From: Mixia osmundae IAM 14324
Lineage: Eukaryota; Basidiomycota; Mixiomycetes; Mixiales; Mixiaceae
Reading direction: 5' to 3'
Assembly (NCBI RefSeq): GCF_000708205.1
Contig: NW_014575547.1
Location: 88,223-152,222 of the forward strand
Length of the DNA stretch: 64,000 nucleotides
Shown in pieces: positions 15,244 through 51,900 of this stretch. Each line of letters begins with the position of its first letter. Position 1 is the stretch's first letter. Made by a program: the position numbers and the translations under genes. The notes under the pieces were generated by a model. It was not told the origin of the DNA. It saw only the letters and a list, made by a program, of their open reading frames with translations, and searched no databases.

Positions 15244-17788
15244 TTAGAGCTCGTCATGCTCGCTAACTGGCTCCTCGGCCGGCGCTTCTTTGAGTGCGTC
15301 AGGCGTGATCTTGTCCTTCAGATCCTTCCAATCTGGCCAATTCTTCGCTTGCTCTTCGATATTGGCTTTCACGCTGTCTGCTGCATCAGAGACAGCTTCA
15401 GCAGCTTGAGTGATAGGCGACGGGTCTACTGGAGGTGCTGGCTTGACATCGACCTTAGGCTGAGCGGTTTCGCTCACGCCAAGTGATCGTCTAAGCAAGG
15501 CCTCGATGCGAGAGAAGTACAGGTTCGCGTCCTTGACGTTGTAGCCAGATTTGACGAGAGAAGTGTCCCAGAGAATGTTGGTCAGCTCGCTCAAGTCAGC
15601 AGCTGCTGTTGCGTTGTCTTCGATATCGGCAACCTTTTCGAGCAAGCCCCTGATGAGAGGATGGTGCGGGTTAATCTCGAGTATACGCTTGGATTCGCGG
15701 ATGAACTTGGTCATAAAATCTTCGCCAGTCTTGCCACTCTGTGCTGCCATGAGACGCTCCATGTTGGCAGTCCAGGCGTACGAGTCTGCGGTGACGGCAC
15801 AAGGACTGGTCGTCAATCGCGTGCTCAACACAACTGCGGCACCGTCAGCTTGCTCGCTTGCGAATGCAACGAGGCGTACCTTCGCTAACGGATGCGTCCA
15901 GCTCCTTCTTAAGGTAAGCCACAAGAGGTTCGTATTCCTCCTTGAGCTCTGCCTCTGCAGCCTTTGAGTCATCATCGTCTTCGTCGCCAAAGATGAGTCC
16001 CTTCTTGGCGACGTCCTGGAACTTCATGCCTTCGTACTCCGGCACAGAAGAAGCGATTATCTCGTCCATGGGTTCCGTCAGGTAGAGCACTTCGTATCCG
16101 CGCGCGAGAGCCGTCTCGACAAAAGGGCTCTTCTCGAGGATCTCCTTGCTCTGTCCTGCTCCCGCCATGTAGTACATCTGCGTCTGGCCCTGCTTCCTGC
16201 GAGACACGTAGTCATCGAGGGAAGTGAAATCGTCGACGCTGGTTCTGAATCGGATGAGCTTGAGCAGTCGGGGTGCGAGCTTCTTGTCCTCGGCATGTGC
16301 TAGCTTGAAGGGTGTCGCAGCATACGTATGGAACTCCTTGTACGTTGCGGGATCATTCTTGGCAGCGTTTGTGAACATCTCGATCGCTTTTCGCAGGATG
16401 GCGCTCTGAATCTGCTTGAGTGAGCGATTGTGCTGGAGTGTATCACGGCCAACATTGAGCGGCAGATCGTCGGCGTCGATGACGACTTTGACCCAGTTCA
16501 GCCACTTTGGCAAGAACTCGTCGCCCAAATCAGAGGTGATGAAGACGCGTTTGACGTAGAGACGCGCAGAATTCTGCGACTGGTAAGACTTTGTGTAGAA
16601 GTCGCCGACGATAGTCTTGGGTGCATAGATGAGTGCCTTGAAGGATGTTCTGCCTGCATCGCCGGAGAAGTGGGTCCACATGGCCGGTTCGGGCCCTTCT
16701 TCTGGAATTGGGTTGCTGTCCTTGTTGAGGACGTTCTTGTAAAAGGAGATGTACTCTTCCGAGGTGACATTCTTTGGATCTCGCATCCAGATAGGAGGAC
16801 GATCGTTGATCCTCGACCACTTTTGAACAGTCACCCGCGTGTCGGCGGCTTTCTTCTTTGGCTTCTCGATAATGTTGCCATCTTCATCAAACTCAGGCTC
16901 GGCAGCGTCATCGATGGCTGACTGGCGAGTGTCTTCGTCATCCCGTGGGATGGTACCCGTCGTCGATGTCCAGAGATAGATGGGTGCAGACGTGGCAAAT
17001 TCAGAGTGCTTTGCCACAAGTTCCTTGATCTTGTCTGTGCCGAGGTACTCTTGCGCATCATCTTTGAGGAACCTGCTCCCAGGCGTCAGAGCGAGCGCAC
17101 CATTAGCGAGTGAACATACAGAGTGATCTCTGTGCCTCTGCCGAGGGTGATGCCGCGAGGATCCTCTCTGATTTTGAACTCTGCCGCGTCTGCCTCGCTC
17201 TCAAAGACCCATTGAACGGGATCGTTGTTGGCTTTCGAGGCAACTTGCACGCGATCTGCGACGAGGAAGGAAGAGTAGAAGCCCAGGCCGAATTGACCTA
17301 GACGAGCGGATGAGCTCAAAGCAGGCCATGACGACCACTCAGCGCGTACCGATGAGGTTGGCGCCTGCGCCGGTCTTGCCCTCGCCAGACTCGAGCTTGC
17401 TCAAGAATTCTGATGTACCCGATCTAGCGATCGTTCCCAGGTTCTTCGTGAGGTCCTCCTTGCTCATACCGATGCCATAGTCGGTAATCGTGAGCGTCTT
17501 CGTGTTGGCATCCGTCTTGATGGATATATTCAGGTAAGGCGCATCCGAATCTGTCAAGATGGTACTGTCCGTGAGAGCCTGGAACCTCAGCTTCTCGAGA
17601 GCGTCGCCTGCGTTGGAGACAAGCTCTCGTAGGAAGACATCTCTGTGATGGTAGAGGTGTGACACGACCACTCGCATGAGCCGAGCTACGTCCGACTGGA
17701 ACTGCAGCGTCTCCTCCTCTGCTCGCACAGGTGTGCCTGACCATGCCAGCCAGGCTCCTAGCGCTAGCGCTGCTGATCTGACCCTCAT
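15244..17788 (-). CDS. Endoplasmic reticulum Hsp90 (endoplasmin, GRP94-like) ending in HDEL
   Basis: Four exons (17788-17350, 17297-17120, 17072-15880, 15833-15244) encode 799 aa. A signal peptide ([16 protein letters not shown], cleaved near ...PVRAEE) precedes the GHKL ATPase domain ([46 protein letters not shown]). An acidic linker, the middle domain ([11 protein letters not shown]...) and the C-terminal dimer domain ([18 protein letters not shown]) follow. The last four residues are HDEL, the ER retrieval signal. It is an ATP-dependent chaperone of the ER lumen. This is notable because ascomycete yeasts lack GRP94; several other fungi keep it. Splice sites are all GT-AG and reproduce conserved Hsp90 blocks exactly. 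The start lies about 118 bp from the divergent Mpp6 start. Confidence 0.95.
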
Positions 17789-17905
17789 CTCTGAGCGACT
17801 GCTTGTCACAAAGTTGTGGAGGCAGCGAGTCGCGAGAGAGGGCGACGACGACGTGTCGACGTGTCGACCCTTGCAGCCTTGCAGACGATCTGGCAACTGT
17901 CCAAG

Positions 17906-18715
17906 ATGCCTCCTCAGCTCTCATCGACCACGCTCGGGCTCAAGTTCATGCAGAGAGGCAATGCCAACAAATCACAAGCCACGTCTGAGCCTGCCCAGCC
18001 TAGCATCGTCCCTTCACCGAGCGCGATCGCACTTGGCAAACGTCGTGCTCCTTCGCCGCCTGTTGCTGCTCCACCTGCCGCCGTCAATGGCAAGCTTGCC
18101 ACAGTCTCGGCAAGCGCACCTGCCGCAAAGCGAGTGCGCTATGTGACGGAAACCTCTCTGCTCAGCTTTCCCTTGGCCGGCTCTTCATCTGCTGCCACGC
18201 CGTTGCAGACTGGCCGAAGAACGTATGGCATCGCCGAGCCAGCACCCGCTGAAGCGAAAGACGAGGAGGAGGCCGCAGACAGTGAGACTGAAGCAGAGAA
18301 GGAGTCACAGAGGATTCTGGCCAACCTCGCGCCTTCACTTTCCAGCGCGATATCACAGGCGCGCAGACCACAAGACAAGGCCAAACGGCAGCCGCCACTG
18401 TCAGCTCCCACGCCCGAACAGCGCGAAGCGCACCGGCAGAGGGAGGCCCGGCTCGAAGCAGAAGGGACGGAGCGTATCATTCCCGTCAAAGAGAAAGCGT
18501 CACACGCTGGCAAGTCGGCGAACGGCTTCATGAAGCCAGGCGGCTACGATGCTATCACGGCAGCCGAACCACGCACTGTCGTACCGGCAGAGCCAGAAGA
18601 TGGAGACAGCATCAAACCTCAAACGCTGGACGAGATCCGCGCGGCGCAGAAGAAAGACAAGAAAGCAAGGAGGGCGCTCAGAAAGGCTGCTGCCGCTCAG
18701 ACAGCCGGAAACTAG
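17906..18715 (+). CDS. MPP6: M-phase phosphoprotein 6 family (Mpp6, nuclear exosome cofactor)
   Basis: A single exon of 269 aa. The N-terminal LGLKFMQRGN is the diagnostic MPP6 motif (KFMKR/KFMQR) that docks this protein on the nuclear exosome, where it aids Mtr4-dependent RNA decay and 5.8S rRNA maturation. A second conserved patch, NGFMKPGGYDAI near residue 205-220, also fits the family. The rest is basic, Ala/Pro-rich and probably disordered, ending in a Lys/Arg/Ala-rich helix. The start at 17906 is chosen because the conserved segment begins within 12 residues; the open frame extends further upstream without conserved sequence. Assignment rests on the two short motifs. Confidence 0.78.
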   Translation: MPPQLSSTTLGLKFMQRGNANKSQATSEPAQPSIVPSPSAIALGKRRAPSPPVAAPPAAVNGKLATVSASAPAAKRVRYVTETSLLSFPLAGSSSAATPLQTGRRTYGIAEPAPAEAKDEEEAADSETEAEKESQRILANLAPSLSSAISQARRPQDKAKRQPPLSAPTPEQREAHRQREARLEAEGTERIIPVKEKASHAGKSANGFMKPGGYDAITAAEPRTVVPAEPEDGDSIKPQTLDEIRAAQKKDKKARRALRKAAAAQTAGN

Positions 18716-18823
18716 CACATGAAGCAATCATGCATTGTCTGTTGTCATCCTATGCAGCATATTCAGCCTGTTGTCCTCGCGGCAATGTTTGCAAACTGAC
18801 CTCTAGAGAGCGCCGCGCCGCGC

Positions 18824-19237
18824 TCAATGGTGATTCGACTTGTGATGCTTCAGATGCATCTGGTCTGAGGCCTCACCTCGTCAGCTCGGCAGAAGCGAGC
18901 CCAACAGCGGACTCACAGTGAATCGTGTAGCTGATGAGGAAGACGCCGACAATGGCGTGAACGAGCGGAGCCGCGCTAGCATTCTCTCCATCAAAGTAGC
19001 GAGCCTTGTATCTCGCCACAGGGTTCAGTCCGGGCGAGTTGTGGGGCGCAGGTCCCTTGGGCAGCTTCGAGTAAAAGTCGATGACCCTCGTCATGCGTTG
19101 TGCTGTCTTTTGCGCCCCGATAGCATTGGGTGACGCAATCTTGGGCGGTATCAGTGTGCGCAGCCTGCATCCCTCGCTGCAGATTAGCAGACATTCGGAG
19201 GACCTGCTGAGCCGAGAAGAACGCACGAGGAAGCCAT
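18824..19237 (-). CDS. ATP17: Mitochondrial F1Fo ATP synthase subunit f
   Basis: Three exons (19237-19227, 19164-18917, 18864-18824) encode 99 aa. The first coding exon is only 11 nt (MASS boundary) and the last only 41 nt. The spliced protein contains RTLIPPKIASPNAIG, RVIDFYSKLPKGPAP and ARYFDGENASAAPLVHAI. A membrane helix and a basic tail ending QMHLKHHKSNHH follow. This is the pattern of fungal Atp17, a small stator-associated subunit of the inner membrane. Without the final splice the frame would run to 18873 with a tail lacking the conserved QMHLKHHK ending; that ending is why the intron 18916-18865 is proposed. Confidence 0.88.
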
Positions 19238-19559
19238 CTTGCTGTCGCTGCTGAGTCTCGCAGCAGTCGGCAAGCGCCTTGTCCTGTTTGTTGCATTTAC
19301 TGTCTGCGCGTGTTTGCCTTTGCGCGATGCCACGCTTGCCTGGAATCTGTCTCTCATCCTTCACGGCTCCATGATTCCTTCCTCATCGTCGGCTTCTGCG
19401 CGGATATTGTCGTATTTCACAGCTACATGGTGCTGTTCCGGTCTCGAGAAGGCGAGATCTCGAAGATCGAGGCACCAGTCGCCAGCACGCATCGGTACCC
19501 AGCCTTCGTGACCTTATGTATCGCCAGCTGTCTTCGAGTGATCAGAAATTGACATACGA
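19238..19559. other. Interval without a supported gene
   Basis: Between the ATP17 start and the degenerate U2 copy there are open frames on the plus strand, one running to about 19552. They lack an ATG near their start and show no recognisable domain. I see no promoter, tRNA or repeat that I can support. Confidence 0.5.
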
Positions 19560-19728
19560 ACCGGTACGTGAGAGTGTGATACGAGTCAGCATTGCGAAAG
19601 GACCGACAGCAAGCCATCGAATCGATTGAGGCACGAAAGATCAGAAGACCTTTTGTTAGGTCGATGACCTGATTCTAGAGTTTCGTCTGCCAAGAACAGA
19701 TACTACACTTCATCAGAGTCAAAAGGCC
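19560..19728 (-). pseudogene. U2 snRNA pseudogene / degenerate copy
   Basis: Read on the minus strand, these 169 nt align without gaps to 20879-21047 on the plus strand, with about 15 differences (near 91% identity). The branch-point-pairing stretch GTGTAGTATCTGTTCTT is intact. Changes fall in places that matter: GGCT to GACT in stem I, GATCAAG to GATGAAG in the part that pairs with U6, and three changes that destroy one arm of stem IIa. Homology stops at the GGCC near the 5' end, so the first ~10 nt and the TATA box of the other copy are missing. This suggests a 5'-truncated, non-functional copy, though low-level expression of a variant cannot be excluded. Confidence 0.75.
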
Positions 19729-19941
19729 TGTTGACGAAAAAGCATTAGCAACCTGAATAGCGACCGAGCTAAAAGTGACTGGGCAGAAACGGTTTTTGGG
19801 TTGGCGCTCACATCTACCCCTTGATGTGCCTCGATACACCTCTGTCATTCCACTCAATGATAGACCTTTTAGCTATACGAAGAGTATGCTCACGTCTGAA
19901 ATAGAAGCCTCGGTGATCAGCCTCTTCAGGATCGTCTCTAA

Positions 19942-20478
19942 ATTTGCCTCACGCATTCCAGGGACTCCGTCTTATCTAAAGGAGCGGCTGAAGCCCTGCA
20001 GCTGTCAGACGTCAGACCGCGACCCATTTCACTTCCGGAACGAAACAGAGATGATGCCATCATAACGCCGCTTCCGCAAGCAACGCATGCTCGAGATCTA
20101 CTCTGTACACGTTCCATAGCGCCTTACATTGCTCGAGAGCCTTTGCCCGCTGTCGTTGACATCATACTAGACATATCAACGCTGTCGGATCTCATCGCGC
20201 ATTACGAACTCCCTGGTGACGCTTTCTCAGACTCTGCACGACGCTCTCCGTCGATGAGCTCGATCTGTCAAGATCATCATCGAGACGGTACAGAGTGGCC
20301 GCAATTCAAAGCCATCTACCATACTCTAGGCAATGGCGACGTGCCTCTAAGTCTCGGTCAGCCAACAACAGGCATGGATGCCATCTCTCGTTATCTGAAT
20401 ACAAGTGCAGTCTCATGTGCTTTTGTGAATGCTGGCTTGTCCCTCAAACGCTGGCAAGTATCGATCGCTGACTTCTGA
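19942..20478 (+). other. Long open frame between the U2 copies, status unknown
   Basis: A stop-free plus-strand frame of about 178 codons lies between the inverted U2 copies. It lacks an ATG at its 5' end, so it would need an upstream spliced exon. A plausible GTGATC...TTCCAG intron just upstream (about 19913-19961) does not join it in frame. The translation (for example EPLPAVVDIILDISTLSDLI) is protein-like in composition, but I recognise no family. It may be an orphan gene, a decayed gene or chance. The rest of 19729-20840 shows nothing I can support. Confidence 0.22.
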
Positions 20479-20840
20479 AGGCTCTCAAGCCCATGAGACA
20501 TAGATTCGGCTGCCCCGCGGGCGAATTCGGCGACGGCGAACGCAGCGTGCAATAGCTTGTGTGAGATCATGACGTGTGCTCTGCACTCGCAGCCCATGCA
20601 TAGCTGGCGTTGGGCATCTCTTTTACGTGCGAGCGAGCGTGCGCGAGTGTTTGGGCTGAGAATGTATGCAAAAGGATAGAACAACGCTCGATCTGATCTA
20701 TCGAAGTGCTTTGAAAAGGCAAATGTAAGCCTGCCGACCGTATCAAGCATCGGTATGTCCACTGCACTGAGGTCGAGTCCTGTTCTACATTGTCCAACAG
20801 CCGTTGTGCCTTGATCACACTGAATCTTCTGGAAATTAGG

Positions 20841-20849
20841 TATATATAG
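20841..20849 (+). promoter_or_regulatory. TATA box of the U2 snRNA gene
   Basis: The sequence TATATATAG starts about 27 nt before the inferred U2 5' end, the usual TATA-to-start distance for RNA polymerase II. The degenerate inverted copy has no counterpart at this position. Confidence 0.6.
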
Positions 20850-20867
20850 TTTGCGCTGACTCGCAGG

Positions 20868-21047
20868 ACACCGTTTCTGGCCTTTTGGCTTTGATCAAGT
20901 GTAGTATCTGTTCTTTCTAGACGAAACTCTAGAATTAGGTCATCGACCTAACAAAAGTTTCTCTGATCTTTCGCGCCTGAATCGATTCGATGGCTTGCTG
21001 TCGGTCCTTTCGCAATGCTGGCTCGTATCACACTTTCGCGTACCGGT
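20868..21047 (+). ncRNA. U2 spliceosomal snRNA
   Basis: The 5' half contains the near-universal U2 stretch GGCCTTTTGGCT, then GATCAAGTGTAGTATCTG (18 nt). This holds the U6-pairing segment and the GTAGTA that pairs with intron branch sites. Stem IIa can form (TTCTAG...CTAGAA), followed by a perfect 7-bp hairpin TTAGGTC/GACCTAA. The 5' end is set from the TATA distance and alignment to U2. The 3' end is uncertain; similarity to the inverted copy runs to 21047. A classical Sm site (AATTTTTGG) is not evident after the stems; GATCTTTCG, kept in both copies, is the best candidate. It is judged the functional copy because key pairing residues are intact. Confidence 0.85.
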
Positions 21048-21256
21048 GTTAAGGCATCCCCTTCTTTTTTGGCTTTTCCTTTTTCTGCTCCACCTTGCTG
21101 TACGCGTCAGCCGAAGCGGGTTGTACACCACGCATGGCTGCCACGACTGGCCTGACGACTCGGTTTTGAAATCACATCCGGCTTGCGCTCGGTCGATCGC
21201 ATAGACAAACATTATGTATGACATGCTACGGTGGGGCGTGAGAAAAGATTTTACCG

Positions 21257-21402
21257 TCTGGGATGGCCGAGCGGCAAGTCAAACTTGTGAGCCTGAGTGA
21301 CGTCGCTGATATTCTGCACTCTCAGGTTTAAGGCGGCAGTTTTGAATTCCCTAGAATTAGCTGCTGGGTTCGCCCTCCTGTGTTCAAATCACAGTTCCAG
21401 AG
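21257..21402 (+). tRNA. tRNA-Ser (anticodon UGA) with two introns
   Basis: The acceptor stem pairs TCTGGGA (21257-21263) with TTCCAGA (21395-21401), with one G-T wobble; discriminator G at 21402. The D-arm starts GCCGAGCGG. The anticodon stem GCAGT/GCTGC flanks loop TTTGAA...A with anticodon TGA at 21343-21345. A long class-II variable arm (GGG TTCG CCC) and the T-arm CTGTG TTCAAAT CACAG complete the fold. A 12-nt intron (21347-21358) sits at the canonical 37/38 position. A second insertion of 52 nt (about 21275-21326, boundaries ambiguous by 2 nt) splits the D-loop after G18-G19. Removing both leaves an 82-nt tRNA, normal for Ser. The A box (TGGCCGAGCGG) and B box (GTTCAAATC) are intact. Confidence 0.85.
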
Positions 21403-21406
21403 ATCA

Positions 21407-21412
21407 TTTTTT
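21407..21412 (+). terminator. RNA polymerase III terminator of tRNA-Ser
   Basis: A run of six T residues starts 5 nt after the discriminator base, as expected for a functional Pol III transcription unit. Confidence 0.75.
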
Positions 21413-21546
21413 GCCGCTTCCGCGCAGCTCGTCTCATTGTAGTATGCAGTTGATCAAGACACGCGCTACGTATCTTTTTGATGTAAAGATTGACCTCGCG
21501 AGCTTTTGCGCTGTGGACGCGTGCAGCTTCTCGGACCTCGAGGACG

Positions 21547-22600
21547 ATGCTGAGGCGAGTATGCAGGCAATCGCTGCCCTTTGCTACAGCCCCGAGAGCA
21601 TGCGGTCGCACTTTCGTTAGCTGCTCACCCCTCCGAGACGCTGCATCCGAGGCAAAGGCGGAAGCAAAGAGGCAAGCTCGAGAGACGCATTTTGGCTTCA
21701 AGAATGTGCCTGAGGGTCAGAAGGAGTCTTTAGGTCAGCCCACCCATTCCGTTCTCGAGTATGGAGCTGATAACAGTCTGCAGTCTCGTCGGTCTTTTCG
21801 TCCGTGGCATCGTCCTATGATGTGATGAACGATGCGATGTCGCTAGGCATCCATCGGCTCTGGAAAGATCACTACGTCAAGAAGCTCGATCCTCATGGCG
21901 GTCTCAAGTGCCTCGATGTAGCGGGCGGGACTGGCGATATAGCCATGCGAATCCTTGATCATGCCAAAGACAAGCATGCCGATCGCGAGACGTCTGTTCA
22001 TGTGCTCGACATTAACCCTGACATGCTCGCCGAGGGTCGCAAGCGATTCGCAAAGACGATGTATCACGCCGGTAAGATCGTAGCGCTTCACCCAACATTT
22101 CTCATGGAGAATGCAGGGCCTCAAGTTTCCTTCGAAGTCGGAAACGCTGAAGATCTCAAGTCGATATCATCAGACTCGCTCGATGTCTATACGATCGCAT
22201 TCGGCATCAGAAATTGCACACACGTTGACAAAGTACTGTCAGAAGCTTACCGGGTTCTCAAGCCCGGCGGAGTGTTCAGCTGTCTCGAGTTCAGCAAAGT
22301 CACTAATCCCCTACTTGCAAAGTTAGCCGTCGTCTCTCGCTTCGTCTGCATGGCACCCGCTGACTCCGAGGCAGAGCTTATGAGGCATACTCCTTCTCGG
22401 TCATACCCAACTTGGGACACATCATTGCTGCCGATCGCGACTCGTATCAATACCTCGTCGAATCGATCGTCAAGTTTCCAACGCAAGAGAGATTCGCAGA
22501 GATGATAGAAGACGCAGGTTTCACTGCGCCACAGGGGGGCCAGATCTGGGAAGACCTCACATTCGGCGTGGCGGCAATCCACACGGGTATTAAGCTTTGA
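21547..22600 (+). CDS. COQ5: 2-methoxy-6-polyprenyl-1,4-benzoquinol methylase, mitochondrial
   Basis: Three exons (21547-21733, 21784-22321, 22375-22600) encode 316 aa. The Arg-rich N-terminus is a likely mitochondrial presequence. Then come [38 protein letters not shown], the SAM-binding [15 protein letters not shown] and [20 protein letters not shown]. The ending SYQYLVESI...[12 protein letters not shown] is that of COQ5, the C-methyltransferase of ubiquinone synthesis. The second intron (22322-22374) is essential: without it the frame shifts just before [11 protein letters not shown]. The start is taken at 21547, the first ATG of the frame. The gene begins about 140 bp after the tRNA-Ser terminator. 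Confidence 0.95.
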
Positions 22601-22662
22601 TGCAGCATCGCGGAGGAACTGCAAATTGCTGTCAACAACAATGAAGTACACACAGGTATGCG

Positions 22663-24262
22663 CTAGTCGGCTACCGCGAGTCGTTCAGCGCCCGCCAAGC
22701 GTACAGAGCTGACGGGCGGGAAGCCCGCTTGTGGGCCTTTTTGCAAGACGAGCAAATTGCGCGCCTGGTGGATGTAAGCTTTGCTGTAGCCTTGCTCGTT
22801 CAGGCTAGCCGCAACGCAATGCATGTCGTCTAGATCGAGCGTCGGATCTCGCCAGGCATATTGTGCCGCAGCGAGTAGCTTGTCCAGTGGGAGCGTTGGA
22901 GGCCCTTCACTCGTTGGCCTGCCTTTGCTGAGTATCCACAGCCTACATCTCGCGATCAGCGGTGTCGGCCGAGCTAGCGGATAACGTACACTTTGCGGCA
23001 CAGATTGCGCCAGCAGATTACTTCCAACTTCTCTTTGAGGAGAACGTAAGCCCCTTTAGATCTGTGCCACTCTCGCCATCGATCGAGAGCTTGTACGCAG
23101 GCGGTATAGTCACCGAGCTATGCGCCCGTCAGCGGCGCTGAGCTGTAATGCAAAAAGTGAAGGCCTACTTTGAGCGCATCGGTCAAGGGTCCATATTGCG
23201 GTTCCAGGTCATATTGTTGCAGCAATAGCTTGCTGGGCAGTATTCCGAGGGGTAAAGAGGCAGCGATGAGGAAGATGAGCAGCATTCTGCATTGGGCGTA
23301 TGCAGCAGGAGAGCAGAGATCGAAAGCGGCTTGTAGCTCTTGTCTTGCTTGTCGCAGACGCCTTTGCGAGAGGTAGATCCGCCCGATATAGTATCGATAG
23401 GTCACTCGATCGGACTTGGGAAAGTCGACGTCGAGGAACGGTCGAGCGTGTCGCGTGTTGTTGATGATCGTATCGGTCAGGCGCAGATTGTCAAGCTTAA
23501 AGTAGATGCGCAAGCATTGATTGGCGACATAGAAAGTTGCCAGACGCTTCTGAGTCGCGCCTCTGTTGGTACATGAGCTTGGGCCTGCTCGGATGAACGA
23601 TGACCAACTTGTCCGTCGAGATGACATTCAAAGTGCGAATGAGCAAGCGGGATGCCAGACTTGCGCGGACGTTCTTGCTATCGTGCGCTGCCTCGTCCGC
23701 CTGTCATTGTGTCGATCAGCCCTGTACCGTTCATCTGACAGGACGAGCTGACTTGAAGTGCCAGCAGGGCGAGGGCGCGCGAAAAGAGCTTGAGCGTTGG
23801 CACGAGCCAATCACTATCTGGCTGCTGAAAGATACTCAGAACATCGCTGTATGCTCTTCAGCGATAGGCAAGCTCGGCGTTCGTGCGACATACGTGTAGC
23901 ATGTTTGTATGAGCTCGTAGGCAGCTGCTTTGGCCGACAAGTCTGGCGAGCCTGGCCTTGCGTCATCGAGATAGCGTAAGTAGTCGTGTACCAAGTCTCC
24001 GAGCGGTCCGTTCTCCTTGAAGAGACTGCGAATGCTGAGCATGACGCTCTGTGTGTTGCGCCGAGGCATGAGCTGAGCCGGGACCTTAGCGCACACGGCT
24101 CACATTGGTAGCCTGGAGAGCAAGAGCGAGCTGTCGAGTGGGAGAGTCATTCTGAGCGCTGAGAAACCAGAGAGGCTCGAAGCAGGCTGCAAGTGCGCGT
24201 GCATCACCGCTTTCGTATGCGAGCTTGACCCTGAGGCCGAACCGGCGCACTTCATGCTCCAT
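22663..24262 (-). CDS. CSN12: PCI-domain protein of the Csn12/Thp3/PCID2 family
   Basis: Seven exons (24262-24104, 24048-23894, 23813-23753, 23673-23609, 23562-23169, 23117-22990, 22942-22663) give 413 aa. The middle contains KRLATFYVANQCLRIYFKL and YRYYIGRIYLSQRRLRQA, then LLPSKLLL-type helices. The C-terminal winged-helix part has KEKLEVICWRNLCRKV, DDMHCVAASLNEQGYSKAYI and a KLVV-like ending. These fit the Csn12/Thp1/PCID2 family, which acts in TREX-2-like mRNA export or transcription-coupled complexes. Introns at 23893-23814 (80 nt) and 23752-23674 (79 nt) are longer than average, and their acceptors are the weakest part of the model. The gene is divergent from BIR1, with 82 bp between starts. 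Confidence 0.82.
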
Positions 24263-24344
24263 CGGACCGTCAATCTCGGCCTCGGCCTCCCAGCGAAACA
24301 ATGAGGGACGCGACTTGCTGGACTTGCCTGTACCGACAAGCCCG

Positions 24345-26074
24345 ATGGCCAGCAAAGGCAGGGCAAAGGGCAAGGCGAGAGACGTACACAAGCAACAAGA
24401 AGCACTCCTCGCTCAGCCTGCCTTTCGCATCGGCACCTTCGAGAACGGCGGGATTCCCAAGACAAACATCGCGTGGCCTCATCCCGCAGAGTATGGCATC
24501 ACACCGAGGTCGCTAGCAGAAGCGGGCTTCTACTATTCGCCGAGCGTAGGCGACGAAGACAATGCGACTTGCTTCCTCTGTGCCCGTAGCTACGGTGGCT
24601 GGTCCGAGGACGACGATGCGACGCAAGAACACTTTCGTCATCAACAGTACGCTGGAGAGTGCGCCTTTGCACACCTCCGCAAGATACACAGCGTCATGGG
24701 AGCATCCGTACAAGCCGGTCTACCGATCCCGCCTCTCGAAGATTGGATGGAGAACCCCACGAGCGAACACGAGACGAGGATGCGCTTCACTACCTTTGGC
24801 ACTTGGTGGCCCCATGACAAGCGCGGCTGGACGCCCAATGCCAAGAATGCGAGTCCACTGTTCCAGCTCACGCGATAGCTGCTGATACCGATTGAGCAGA
24901 TCGCCGAGGCGGGCTTCTTCTTCAGTCCCGATATAGATGACGGACGGATAGACACCGCGCTCTGTCCCTACTGCGGCACCGGCCTAGACGGCTGGGAGAA
25001 AGACGACATACCATTGTACGCGCTCAGCAGGTTTTTTTGGGCCCATACTGACCTCACTGCAGTGATGAGCATCACAAGCGCAAGACTCACTGCGCATTCG
25101 TTCAGGCAGAATTGGCAAGACGAGCGAAAGCCGTCGAGAGCGCGCCAAAAGCGTCAACGAGCAAGAGGAGTAATTTGGCAGCGTCGAGGAGCAAGCCGAC
25201 AAGCTCGGCGTCTATCGGCTCAAGGGCAAGTGCAGCTGACGATGTCCCGGAGCAAGCAACACGCGTCGAACCTGAAGAGGAACCTCGGCCGGCAGTACTG
25301 CCTGGCAAGCGACAGGTGTCCGGCGCAAAGCGACAGCGACAGATCAGCACAGACAGCATTGCGCGACGTCCTCCGGACCGAACAGAGACGACGGGCGTGC
25401 AAACGAGGCGCGTGACTCGTTCGGCCTCTGTTGCTTCCCTAGCCAGCTCCACGCGTTCTGCGCCGCCATCGCACGACGAAGGCATAGCGGATGGACCAGC
25501 ATCCTCTTCACCGCCTTTGCCCCAGGCGAAAAAGCCGAGGCGCAAAGCAACAAAGAGTCAGACTCGAACGGTCTCGAAGACAAGTCAGATACCGACCATC
25601 GATCTCGGCTCCACGTCATTAGATCTACCTGACGAGCCAGTCCATGCAAGCAAGATTTTACACACTGTCGAGCAAGTGTCCAGGGAGCCAGCACCGGCCC
25701 CAGGTCATCTACAGGCCCCTGCAGAAGCTACACCTCGCTCGAGCACATCTACTGCATTCCACTCGGTTGCCTCGCCCGATCATTCCTTCTCGATCATCGA
25801 GGCGCCAGAGGCGAATGAAGATGCTACACTCCGCTTGCCCGTCATCAACGGCTCCGCTGCAGCCTTGCCGAGCAGTCCGAAGCGAGTATCTGATCTGATC
25901 GCCTTACCGCCCGCAATGACCGAAGCCGAACTCGATATGACGGTGGAGGAGTACATCACCCGCGCTCTCGATAGAGATGCAGGAGAAGCCGAGAGAGCTT
26001 TGCGGCAGAAGCTCGAGGTCTTTGAGAAGCTCAGTGCGATGCACCGTCAACGGATCGAGCAAGCACTGTTGTAG
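24345..26074 (+). CDS. BIR1: Survivin-like BIR-domain protein (chromosomal passenger complex)
   Basis: Three exons (24345-24848, 24900-25015, 25063-26074) encode 543 aa. Two BIR zinc domains are seen. The first has CFLCARSYGGW with the downstream H...C in HQQYAGECAFA; the second has CPYCGTGLDGWEKDD with HHKRKTHCAF. A long basic, Ser/Pro-rich region follows, and a C-terminal helix (MTEAELDMTVEEYITRALD...) is typical of fungal Bir1. The protein acts with Aurora kinase and INCENP at centromeres and the spindle. The first intron is GC-AG (donor AAT|GCGAGT, 24849-24899); no GT donor restores IAEAGFFFSP. The coding end overlaps the convergent TPR-like gene by 44 bp. Confidence 0.9.
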
Positions 26075-27299
26075 CTTTTGCAATCTCAGCTATTCGCATC
26101 AGTAGCACCTGACGCGGCCATTCTATGTTCTCGATCTGCGGATTGGACAGCCAGACCGCGGCTGTTGGTCCATTCGGCAGCAAGATTGTCAGGGCCTGAT
26201 GGATATGATCGGATATTGACGATGTGCCCGTCTGCAACCTGTCCACGTTGGCGAGCGAAAGATGACAGTCTGCTAGGGCGAGCTTGCGCTCGTGAGTCTG
26301 TAAAGGTGGCTTGAGCGGCATTGCACCTTGCAACTTTGCCAATGCGCGACCGAAAGCATTCTGCGCGAGCTGCAGGAGGGTAGACCATTTCGCTCGATCC
26401 AAGCGCTGCTCTTCCACGACGAGCACGAAGAACTCGGCCAGGCTCGTCAGACCACTCGCGGGTAAGTCGACTGCCAAATCGTTGACGAGCTCGTCGAGTA
26501 TGGACACGAGCTGGGCGTCTGTGAATAGCGATATGTTGTGTGCCAACCTGCCGAGCTCGGCCACTCGGATGTCCTCTTGTCGATGAGACAAGGTGGCAAG
26601 GTCTACAGACGCAGAGAGCGGCTGCAGGACATGCTGGTTCGGCAGCAAACATTCGACGTCGCTCTTTGCGATGATCGTCGTGAGCACAATGTCGAGCGTA
26701 ACAATCTCGGTGATCTGGATATCGTTATCCTCGACCATCCCCAGGGATGCATCAGGAACATCGTCATCTTGCGATGCTGGTTGTAAGCGTGAGATCTGGG
26801 ATACCAGGAGCTCGTCCAGCAGACTAAGCGCTCTCTGAGGATCGTCAAGCGCGATGGGCTCATTGCCTGCAAAGTCGGTGTCCATCTCGTAACGAGTTGT
26901 CAGGGCAGCCGTCATGTTGAAGCAAGCATCGTCACGGCTGACTTCATACTGTCTAGCAGCGTCGAAGCGATCGATGGCTTGCGAGACAAGTTCTCGACAA
27001 TGAGGAAAAGGCGTGAATGTGTCGCCTAGCTTTAGCAAAACGCGCGCTCTGGACTTCTGATGAGGATGATATCAGTCCACACGACGAAGAGAAGCGCACT
27101 CGTTGTAGATGGCATCTCCGGTGAACCGAAACGTCTGAGCGAGCCGGTAGAGACGGAGAGATTCGTGATAATATCGCAATGCTTTGTCGCCGAACTGGTA
27201 GCGCTCTGCTTGTTCCTCCTGGTGTACACCTGCATCAAGGGCTTCGTCGTAGTCGATAGGCTCTTGTTTTCCCTTGGGTTTGGCTTTCTTGGGGGGCAT
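26031..27299 (-). CDS. TPR-like helical protein, uncharacterised
   Basis: Two exons (27299-27100, 27048-26031) encode 405 aa. A basic start (MPPKKAKPKGKQ) precedes helix pairs of TPR type, for example GDKALRYYHESLRLYRLA, AIYNEARVLLKLGD and AIDRFDAARQYE. The rest is alpha-helical with acidic patches. I do not recognise it with certainty; the layout recalls fungal Ett1-type translation-termination proteins, but this is only a guess. No membrane segment or signal is seen. The phase-2 intron is supported by continuity of the helical repeat. Its last 44 nt overlap the BIR1 coding end on the opposite strand. Confidence 0.72.
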
Positions 27300-28348: not shown

Positions 28349-29648
28349 TCATGCGATTCTCTTGGGTTGGCCGTCTGACGCGACGAGAGAGTGGTCTGCG
28401 CTTAGCACGCGCGGTCCGTCGCCTACTCGGGTATGGATAAGTCGGCTGACGCTTTCCGGCGGAAAGACAGTCGATACTTTCACGTTGAAGCCAGCAGGCA
28501 GGGAGCCTTCTTTTCTATCTTTCCCCGGAAAAAAGTGAGAGACGAGTGCGATGATCTCGGGCATGCTTTGCTCGAGTGCGTAGATGACCGCATTCGGCCC
28601 TGCGTCGAATGTGTAAGCCGCCACAAGACCTTTGCCAGCTTCTGTCGAGAGTCTGTTGAGTTCTGTGATGACTGCGATGATTGACCTTGACACGTCGTTC
28701 AGATAGAAGATAGGTGGGAAAGTGTCCATGCAGACTGCATGGAAGCTATTCGAATCCTTCATGGTGATTGTTGCAAAGGTATCAAAATCGCGTTGGTTGA
28801 TTGCCTTTGTGATCTCTGCCATTCTCTCGGGCACGACAGAATTGATGCGCTCTTGCAGCAGTGTCGAAGTCTGCACGGTCCTTTGCATGCCCGAAGTAGA
28901 AGAAGTGCCTTTCTTTGCATCCGACACCACGCAGATCAGTGCTTTCATGCCCGCCCAATGTGTCTCGGGCGCAACTTGGACAGCTAACGAGTCCTGCCCA
29001 TCCGCAGAGGCGCCCATTTCCCAAGCGACATACCCGCCAAACAGTGACCGACAGGCTGATCCTGAGCCCTGTCGTGCTATTCTCGATAGCTCAGATGCGT
29101 TCTCAGGCAGCTGGTATAGTTTTGCGAGCGTGAAGACAAGCGCTGCGAAGCCTGAAGCTGATGATGCTAGGCCGGCAGCGGTAGGGAAGTTGTTCTCTGA
29201 CACGATGTGCAAGTGACAGCTCGACAGCGCCTGCGAACCGTGCACCTTGTCATCAGCCTTCTTTGCCTCAAAGAAGAGCTTACTTTGCCGTCAATGTCTT
29301 TCTGTGAGGCTGATTGTTCGAGTTGTCGCCTGAGCTTGCGCATTTCCTCGAGACAAGTCGTCATCCTGCCTTCGCCATCTAGAGCGACGCTCGAGCCATT
29401 CAACCACAGCGCGTCTCGTGTGAAGGTTGCATCTGCACGTATGCTCGTTGTAGAGCGCAGATCATCTTGCGACAGCGTCAGAGAAAGGGACGAATTGGTT
29501 GGCAGAATGAGCGCAGTGTCCCTCTTGCCCCAATATTTGATGACTGCGATGTTGACCTGTTTTAGCACCAAAGCAAAGCATCAGCATACACATGATGTAC
29601 ATGCACTCGACTGACCGGCGCCGAGCATGTCGCCTCGACAAATGTCAT
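28349..29648 (-). CDS. MVD1: Mevalonate diphosphate decarboxylase
   Basis: Three exons (29648-29616, 29556-29284, 29230-28349) encode 395 aa. Spliced, the start reads CSAP then [13 protein letters not shown]. It continues with [34 protein letters not shown] (the GHMP-type glycine/serine loop) and [17 protein letters not shown]. The end shows [13 protein letters not shown]. These are hallmark MVD (Erg19) blocks. The enzyme makes isopentenyl diphosphate from mevalonate diphosphate using ATP, feeding sterol, ubiquinone and dolichol synthesis. All splice sites are GT-AG and phase 0. It is divergent from the MFS gene, with about 175 bp between starts. Confidence 0.96.
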
Positions 29649-48928: not shown

Positions 48929-51900
48929 TTAGCCTGTGAAGATTCGCATCGTCTGATATGCCGCCGCGCCTGCAAACCTGACAATGCTCACTGTGTGCGT
49001 GATGAGTCCCTATCCAGACTAGCTTGGCAAGAGACATACTTATGGCAACGAGCACCAGGATGACGAGCATGAAGACACGCGTCCGTCCACCGCCGCCTCC
49101 GCCTTCAAATGTCTGTACAGGATCGCCACCTAGCACAATTGAGACGAGAAGCCCATTGGCGAGGACCCAAGCGAGCAGTACGCGTGTGCGAACAGATCTA
49201 TACCAGTCTTCCGTTTCGCGGTCGCGATCGGACTGACTGCTGACTTTTGGTATAACTGCTGGATTTGTGCGTAGGTGATGTAATGCAGTATCGTATGATC
49301 CGTCTGCAAGAAAGCGTCAGTAGGGTAGACATGCGCTCGTGTTCAACTGACCTGTGTCTAGCTGCGATTCTGGCATGGTCATCTCGACTGTGCCCGATGA
49401 GGATGTCAGGACGGCAGCGCCCAGATCCATCGTGACAGTGTGAGAGTCTTTCGTGCCCCATGAAAAGTCATGAAGATTGGAGAAAGCATAGGTGTTGAGC
49501 ACGCAAATGTACGATGGAGCCAGCAGGAGATATTGGGTCATACTCGTCACTGCGCTCGCGTCAATAAGTTTTAGCCGAGTGATAAACAAGCATACCCATA
49601 TGCCACGGGTCAAGAGCGATGAGACTGGCGAGAAACCATGACCCGTACGTGCAGATGAGCGATAGGAGCATTTGCGAGAAGATAGCTCGAGATGCCGAAC
49701 CCTCTACTGCTTTGACAATGCAGAAGACCGCGCCAACGGCCATATATAGACAGAGCACCGCGAAAATGACCATGACGGCGGTGTAAGACTTTCGCGAGCC
49801 TTGTGGACGATTGCCGAGTGCTAGCAAAAAGCAAGCGATCAGTGTGGCCTGGTATAGCTTTTGCGCAATGATGTTGACAAAGACAATGCCCTTGAGGTTG
49901 AGTGAAGGTGCTTCGAGTGCAGTCGTCAGTATGATGAAGAACAGGTAATAGAGAGATAGCGACATAAAGGCAAATACAAGCGACAAGACATTGTAGAGCG
50001 TCTCGAACATGAGCAGTAATTTGCGCATCTTGCTGTGGTCCGTCTTGAGAAGTCGTGTGAAGTGCAGGATACTGAACACAGCGCAGAAGAAAGCACCGTT
50101 GAGCCATCGCCGCCTTTGCGAGATGAATTCGGCGACATCTGTGGGCACATCGGTCTCGCCTTTTGCATTCTTGACGTACTTGAGCACCCAGGCATGACCA
50201 GGACTTGCGACGAGTTCCCAGCACAAAATGCGATCTTCGGCTAGATAGCAGTTGCTCGTAAAGGTGTCGGCGTCTTTACCTGCAAGTGTCTCACCCTTGA
50301 AGTAGGTCGCAAGCGGGCCGTGACCGAGACCGTCGTTGCGTAAAGCGACGTAACGATACGCCGAGAAGGCGCCTGGTAGAACGGAGATGTAGCCCAGAAC
50401 CGACTCGAAAGGCTTGTCGAGGATGTTTGACATCCTATCATGCGATCAGCTAGGTACTGACATGCTCGTCTTGGCGCTTACTTGTACTCATAATCCTGAG
50501 CCGCAACGAGCGGATTGAGCAGGCCTGATCGGAACTTGCCCTTCATAGTGACAATCTCGCCGCATGCGCCAGCGACATTCGAGTTGCGATCAAACGCTTT
50601 CCAGAGGTGGTAGATCGATTTTGGCCCTGGCAATGTGCCAACATCAATCAGGATCGCAATATTGGGATTTAGCTGTTTTGCCACTGCATTGAAAAGCCAG
50701 CGATGACTGTTAATCTTCTTCGCGTTGCGCTCTTTGAGCAAAAGCATGACTTGTGTTGGGCAGATGCCCTTCTCGAGTCCTTTGAACTTCATATTCGGAT
50801 CGATAGACAGTTGAGTCGTATGCTCGTAAAGGTGAGCCGTAACGATTTTTTCGCCAACAGTGTTCTTCGCGATGCCATCTTGGTAGACACCAAGCGCGCT
50901 CAGACTGAGCGAAGGTTAAGTACGTATACCACATATCTGATGAAGCCTACCAGTCCAAGACGCGAGGATGGATCTTCTGGCGACCATCTGCGACAATGCA
51001 GACTACGATTTTCTTCCAGCCGTCTTTGCCCCAGACTTTCGACTTGTCGCGCGTACATAGATGAGCGATATTCTTCATGATACCGTGCATGGTGCGACAG
51101 AAAAGCACCTCATTCTCCGAGTAGACTGTAACGCCGATGAGGATCTCGCATTCTCTCCGTATCGTTGAGGGTCGGAGATTGAAGCATTGCCTTTCGAAAT
51201 CGTCTGGATCGCAAGTGACTGCTGAATACCTGCTCTCAAATCATGAGCAGCGGGTCGATGCTGATGTTGAGGAGCATACCGAGTGAACAAGAACTCGTCG
51301 TCTTCTCGGCGCGGAAGGAAGCTTTCGAGACGCGTTGGGATTCGCAGATCCAGAACGAGATTGCCTTCTGTGAGCTTGATCTCCTTACGTTTCCTCCTGC
51401 GACCGGCTTGTAGACCCGGCGTGACGCCATGAGGGTTGCGTCGTTCTTGCGCACCGACAGGAGCTGGACCGTAGTGTCTGCCTTGGGAAGTGTGCGTATC
51501 GGCAGACGTCGTCTTCGACAGGACTGATGACATTGGGTCAAATTTGCCATCATCGTCATATAAGGAGGAAGTAGCAGTGAGTGATGAGGTGGCAGAGTCT
51601 GTCGTATTGCCACGCCTGAGCTCAGGAACAACAAGAGGTATATGGGTCAGATTAGGCGGCGGATCGTATGCAGGCGCAGGTTCACTGCCTTGCCATGCGC
51701 CGGGGTATGGGTGAGTCTCATCTTCTGTTTTGACATGTACAATGTGTGAACGAGCTTGCGGCTCAGGCTCGTGTTGTGCATACGCCGATAACCTTGACCG
51801 CGCGACCGGCACAGGAACAGAGTCGTAGCGCAGACTGTACGCTGACCGTATGCGAGCTGTAGTGGGCGAGTCAGGCGCGGGCTCATCATTCAGCAAGGAG

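Follow-up and report, generated by a model that had tools for sequence, protein, structure and literature searches.

Probable spliceosomal introns in tRNA genes of the basidiomycete Mixia osmundae

Introduction

How does a tRNA gene yield a mature product when, beside its ordinary anticodon-loop intron, it carries a second interruption inside the D-loop? The question is raised by the tRNA-Ser(UGA) gene at positions 21257-21402 (+) of a 64-kb stretch of DNA (the window) from Mixia osmundae, a basidiomycete of the Pucciniomycotina. A sequence-only reading had recognized the gene and both of its interruptions, and had proposed that excision of the D-loop insertion would need a relaxed tRNA endonuclease or another route. 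We examined the locus together with the tRNA genes gathered from the 13.5-Mb genome (19 contigs), in which the window forms the end of contig C17.

Judging from its sequence features, the D-loop insertion is probably a U2-type (GC-AG) spliceosomal intron in a Pol III tRNA gene; counting it, at least six tRNA genes of this species would carry such an intron.

Results

Two interruptions in tRNA-Ser(UGA)

The gene and its two interruptions are real: the arms fold, and ARAGORN calls Ser(tga) with complete arms once both introns are taken out. Exon 1 (21257-21273; bases 1-18, from the 5′ strand of the acceptor to G18, tRNA numbering by eye) is followed by the 52-nt D-loop insertion at 18/19 (21274-21325; GCAAGT...CTCAG), exon 2 (21326-21346; G19 to A37, with the anticodon TGA at 21343-21345), a 12-nt intron one base 3′ of the anticodon (21347-21358) and exon 3 (21359-21402; base 38 to the discriminator G73), all on the plus strand. 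The 12-nt intron sits at the canonical position 37/38, as had been claimed; the 52-nt insertion lies away from it. The acceptor stem is formed by TCTGGGA and TTCCAGA, the T arm has 5 bp and the variable arm is of class II. The earlier statement that no arm has a mismatch holds if G-U is counted as a pair and falls otherwise, one G-U being in the acceptor and one in the anticodon stem (by eye).

Since its edge bases repeat, the D-loop insertion can be placed in three equivalent registers that leave an identical spliced RNA. The placement after G19, given by the sequence-only reading, is one of them; another starts one base earlier, after G18, and it is this register (21274-21325) that has GC-AG ends and closes on CTCTCAG. 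Within it lies a branch-like CTGAT (21306-21310, +), whose A stands 16 nt before the 3′ splice site. The hairpins described before are also present (CAAGT, 21275-21279, with ACTTG, 21283-21287; CCTGAG, 21292-21297, with CTCAGG, 21321-21326); a spliceosomal reading does not need them.

The Pol III signals noted earlier are in place as well. An A box, TGGCCGAGCGG (21264-21274, +), and a B box, GTTCAAATC (21382-21390, +), are what we take to be the internal promoter, assuming the usual box consensus, and a terminator-like T6 run stands 3′ of the gene (21407-21412, +). The last G of the A box is the first base of the D-loop intron; because this intron begins with G, the A box is kept intact. A plain tRNA-gene scan misses the gene. 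With introns allowed, ARAGORN miscalls the unspliced sequence as Gln(ttg) with a spurious 48-nt intron, and it still returns Gln(ttg) when the 52-nt intron alone is removed.

Neighbourhood of the locus

A U2 snRNA gene (20870-21057, +; Rfam RF00004, 103 bits) ends 199 nt upstream of tRNA-Ser(UGA). An inverted U2 copy (19560-19728, -) is 91% identical to it over 169 nt; as its 5′ part differs and it is not listed above the Rfam gathering score, it is perhaps a pseudogene.

The 181 bases at 21240-21420 recur without change on contig C8, and the identity extends over all 9,901 bases compared (window 16338-26238; G000:C8:727700-737600, locus L022). We read this as overlapping or redundant contigs of the assembly, or else as a duplication of recent date; the C8 stretch is no diverged paralogue.

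Census of tRNA genes

tRNA genes were gathered with the Rfam tRNA model (19 matches), by BLAST of 20 intron-free tRNAs and by B-box and A-box patterns; four of the pattern searches (totals of 163, 180, 179 and 344) gave their first ~100 matches each, and from every pattern search a part of the matches listed was read. At least 33 different tRNA genes were found in this way (L003-L021, L024, L078, L080, L092, L100, L104, L113, L115, L121, L125, L128, L129, L133 and the window). A 37/38 intron of 9-40 nt is present in 26 of the 33, three genes are intron-free, and six carry an insertion of 48-55 nt away from 37/38, at six positions and on five contigs. tRNA-Ser(UGA) and tRNA-Pro(UGG) have a 37/38 intron too and are counted among the 26. 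The earlier surmise that this lineage handles tRNA introns unusually was right. For several of the remaining genes, the isotype and the borders of the 37/38 intron were assigned by eye.

The genes were picked by tRNA features and not by splice signals, with the exception of some A-box matches fetched partly for a GT on their 3′ side; these added only tRNA-Phe, which is without such an intron. This incomplete 33-gene census contains no gene for Val, Asn, Cys, Lys(CUU), Gly(GCC) or Ala(AGC), among others. L080 was assigned to Arg(ACG) and not to tRNA-Val, on a by-eye reading of its anticodon loop. A segment 97% identical to tRNA-Met(CAT) over 34 nt (L071:1489-1546; G000:C2:899114-899147) has no visible T arm and was left uncounted; it looks like a pseudogene. 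The loci L134-L140, fetched on A-box pattern matches, showed no tRNA by eye. TATA-like runs stand upstream of several tRNA genes (L078, L092, L100 and L104; by eye) and may be upstream Pol III promoter elements.

Genome BLAST, which addresses near-identical copies, returned no second full copy of any of the 20 tRNAs except the C8 copy of tRNA-Ser(UGA). A second intact tRNA-Ser(UGA), which the earlier reading had named as one of two marks of a pseudogene, was sought with the intron-free gene; only the window copy and its identical C8 counterpart came up, a strongly diverged gene being able to escape. Lys(UUU) and Arg(UCU), which with Ser(UGA) are the three of the six interrupted genes that this search covered, likewise had no other copy. 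That a diverged second copy could escape BLAST follows from the tRNAs of other anticodons that BLAST missed and that were found later. On these figures the tRNA set of the genome is intron-rich and low-copy.

Six insertions with splice-like ends

By-eye tRNA numbering places the insertions at 18/19 in Ser(UGA), 22/23 in Leu(UAA) (L104:433-483), 25/26 in Ser(GCU) (L100:512-562, -), 45/46 in Pro(UGG) (L128:57-104, -), 53/54 in Arg(UCU) (L018:1521-1571, -) and 60/61 in Lys(UUU) (L021:1562-1616). Before removal, ARAGORN misses three of the six genes and miscalls the other three. Once the insertions are out, it calls Arg(tct), Lys(ttt), Ser(gct), Leu(taa) and Pro(tgg), the last with its 13-nt 37/38 intron kept. 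Arms are then complete or nearly so in all six genes, the departures being an acceptor mismatch in Lys and a 31-39 mismatch in Leu. The earlier description of the window gene as functional-looking despite its ectopic second intron was correct. The A box is contiguous in all six and the B box in five, the Lys(UUU) intron splitting off the last C of the B box. TTTT occurs within the Leu(UAA) and Ser(GCU) insertions and could weaken Pol III read-through there.

For every one of the six insertions there is an equivalent register bounded by GT...AG or GC...AG. Three of them (Arg(UCU), Leu(UAA) and the window) open with GCAAGT; the 5′ hexamers of the others are GTACGT, GTGAGC and, in Pro(UGG), GTCAGT. 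When inserts are shuffled, such ends appear in 0.7-2.3% of cases for each, with a product over the six of 4.7e-12; this null preserves nothing but base composition, permutes the insert without its flanks and takes the six as independent. A branch-like CTGAT, CTGAC, TTAAC or CTAAT stands 13-16 nt from the 3′ end in five of the six, so that a stricter test joining ends and branch-like motif is passed by five. The remaining one, Pro(UGG), can be placed in seven equivalent registers and is without a branch-like motif by the pattern used. Among the 26 canonical 37/38 introns, none shows GT/GC...AG ends in an equivalent register, and that of LeuCAG does so only in a non-equivalent shift of 1. The two length classes (48-55 versus 9-40 nt) do not overlap.

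In favour of an assembly or sequencing artefact, the window copy lies on a contig whose sequence recurs on another. Against it, the six insertions all differ, are spread over five contigs and are bounded exactly by splice-like ends, and we regard this explanation as extremely unlikely.

Comparison with mRNA introns

Six mRNA introns of the window were placed by restoring the reading frame of three conserved genes against homologues. One, of 46 nt (15834-15879, -; GTACGC...CTGAC...GCAG), belongs to an Hsp90-family gene, whose protein has at most 54% identity among the 120 matches listed. Two (29557-29615, 59 nt; 29231-29283, 53 nt) lie in a mevalonate diphosphate decarboxylase gene (28349-29648, -); one of them was first placed by eye and then supported by the spliced protein, which is identical over 395/395 residues to the entry for Mixia osmundae IAM 14324. 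The other three (51230-51279, 50905-50950 and 50435-50481) are in part of a chitin synthase gene (50435-51279, -).

These introns measure 46-59 nt (n=6), a range within which all the tRNA insertions fall, and all start with GT and end with AG. Their 5′ hexamers are GTAAGC (twice), GTCAGT, GTACGC, GTATGC and GTAGGC, five of them fitting GTANGC; GTCAGT is common to one mRNA intron and the Pro(UGG) insertion. CTGAT, CTGAC or TTAAC occurs in five of the six, its A lying 11-24 nt before the 3′ end, and in three the motif is CTGAT, as in the Ser(UGA) insertion. GC-AG ends are found in three of the six tRNA insertions versus none of the six mRNA introns, a difference that weighs against the spliceosomal reading, in a comparison that covers six introns from three genes only.

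Which machinery removes the insertions?

The most direct competitor is the relaxed tRNA-splicing endonuclease that the sequence-only reading put first. The insertions would then be non-canonical introns, with tRNA ligase joining the exons, as described for archaea, nucleomorphs and Cyanidioschyzon. Four of the six positions (22/23, 25/26, 45/46 and 53/54) appear on the list of archaeal ectopic sites in PMC4090602. Furthermore, 26 of the 33 tRNA genes found have 37/38 introns, and the tRNA endonuclease machinery should therefore be active. As for the RNA shape, none of the six insertions has, in any equivalent register, the 4-bp core of a bulge-helix-bulge, but only 1 of 16 canonical controls (of the 26, 16 were given) passes this strict form; with a shift of 1, Pro(UGG) forms four bulge-helix-bulge pairs. 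With so few controls passing, the matching is uninformative either way. What a relaxed endonuclease does not predict is the occurrence of GT/GC...AG ends in all six, or a length class like that of mRNA introns, and we consider this route unlikely. Excision by the spliceosome is the likelier one because the six share a length class, GT/GC-AG ends and, in five cases, a branch-like motif. The earlier wording, a relaxed endonuclease "or another route", was thus sound in allowing for the other route and too narrow in leaving the spliceosome unnamed.

The six genes might instead be disrupted, non-functional pseudogenes. Short D- or T-arm insertions in eukaryotes mostly fall in a gene that has many synonymous counterparts and are presumed to mark pseudogenes, according to PMC4090602. 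In Mixia, for Ser(UGA), Lys(UUU) and Arg(UCU) the genome BLAST gave no other copy (apart from the identical Ser(UGA) on C8, and with diverged copies able to escape), and the arms are retained after removal. Moreover, Arg(UCU), Lys(UUU), Leu(UAA) and Ser(GCU) are the readers of AGA, AAA, UUA and AGY, and to our knowledge no other tRNA should read these codons well. A pseudogene origin appears highly improbable.

Alternatively, the GT/GC-AG ends could be genuine and the transcripts made by Pol II, the tRNA-like part not being a working tRNA. U2 snRNA belongs to a class made by Pol II in fungi, and the U2 gene lies close upstream of tRNA-Ser(UGA). Against this stand the A box, B box and T-run in tRNA-like order and the correct isotypes of all six genes after removal; we give a Pol II origin a slimmer chance still.

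Discussion

From the shared ends, lengths and branch-like motifs we infer that the spliceosome would remove the insertions from these tRNA precursors. In the pathway that we propose, Pol III would transcribe tRNA-Ser(UGA) from its A and B boxes and the spliceosome would excise the ectopic insertion. The tRNA endonuclease and ligase would take the 37/38 intron out of the same precursor, for Ser(UGA) as for Pro(UGG), while RNase P and tRNase Z would trim the ends. The introns may have originated by gain in a structured RNA, as in fungal U6 and U3, at sites mostly sparing the internal promoter boxes.

A further consequence, which we hold to be fairly likely, is that the spliceosome acts as an obligatory tRNA-processing enzyme in Mixia osmundae: every gene found for the readers of AAA, UUA, AGA and AGY, and likewise for Ser(UGA) and Pro(UGG), carries a putative spliceosomal intron, and the precursors of the last two would need both the spliceosome and the tRNA endonuclease. 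On strong sequence evidence from six loci, tRNA genes would constitute a new host class for spliceosomal introns.

If this is true, spliceosomal introns in several needed tRNA genes breach the division of labour between the spliceosome and the tRNA-splicing enzymes, and the spliceosome can process Pol III transcripts as short and folded as those of the tRNA class. Splicing would be coupled directly to decoding, with translation capacity tied to mRNA splicing. The six genes would also be natural examples of introns gained by a non-coding target whose structure is exactly known. Given how ARAGORN missed or miscalled all of them before removal, genes with such insertions escape annotation.

Within the open-licence literature, which leaves most subscription journals outside, we found no tRNA gene reported to hold a spliceosomal intron; the U6 and U3 cases were found there. 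The search for non-canonical introns set out in PMC8450103 is described for archaeal candidates. Non-canonical tRNA introns are rare in eukaryotes, with nucleomorphs and Cyanidioschyzon as the exceptions named in PMC4090602. By that account, the ectopic introns of archaea, nucleomorphs and Cyanidioschyzon resemble the Mixia insertions in occupying the D arm, T arm and variable region, some of them beside a 37/38 intron. Their excision in archaea and Cyanidioschyzon, in contrast, rests on RNA shape and the tRNA endonuclease, the nucleomorph route being called unknown there (PMC4090602). The Mixia insertions differ from all three by their GT/GC...AG ends, branch-like motifs and mRNA-intron-like 48-55 nt.

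Closer at hand, the canonical 37/38 introns of the species interrupt the same class of genes, Ser(UGA) included, but they are shorter (9-40 nt) and none has GT/GC...AG ends in an equivalent register. Its mRNA introns are like the tRNA insertions in length, in their AG ends and in their CTGAT, CTGAC and TTAAC motifs; they differ in starting uniformly with GT, mostly as GTANGC, whereas three of the tRNA insertions start with GCAAGT.

The nearest parallel comes from other small RNAs. U6 is itself a Pol III product. Spliceosomal introns occur in fungal U6 snRNA and U3 snoRNA, as set out in PMC5832005, and there too mRNA-type introns sit in small structured non-coding RNAs of fungi. The hosts in Mixia osmundae differ in being tRNAs, whose promoters lie inside the gene and which have their own route of intron removal, and two of their precursors would need both machineries.
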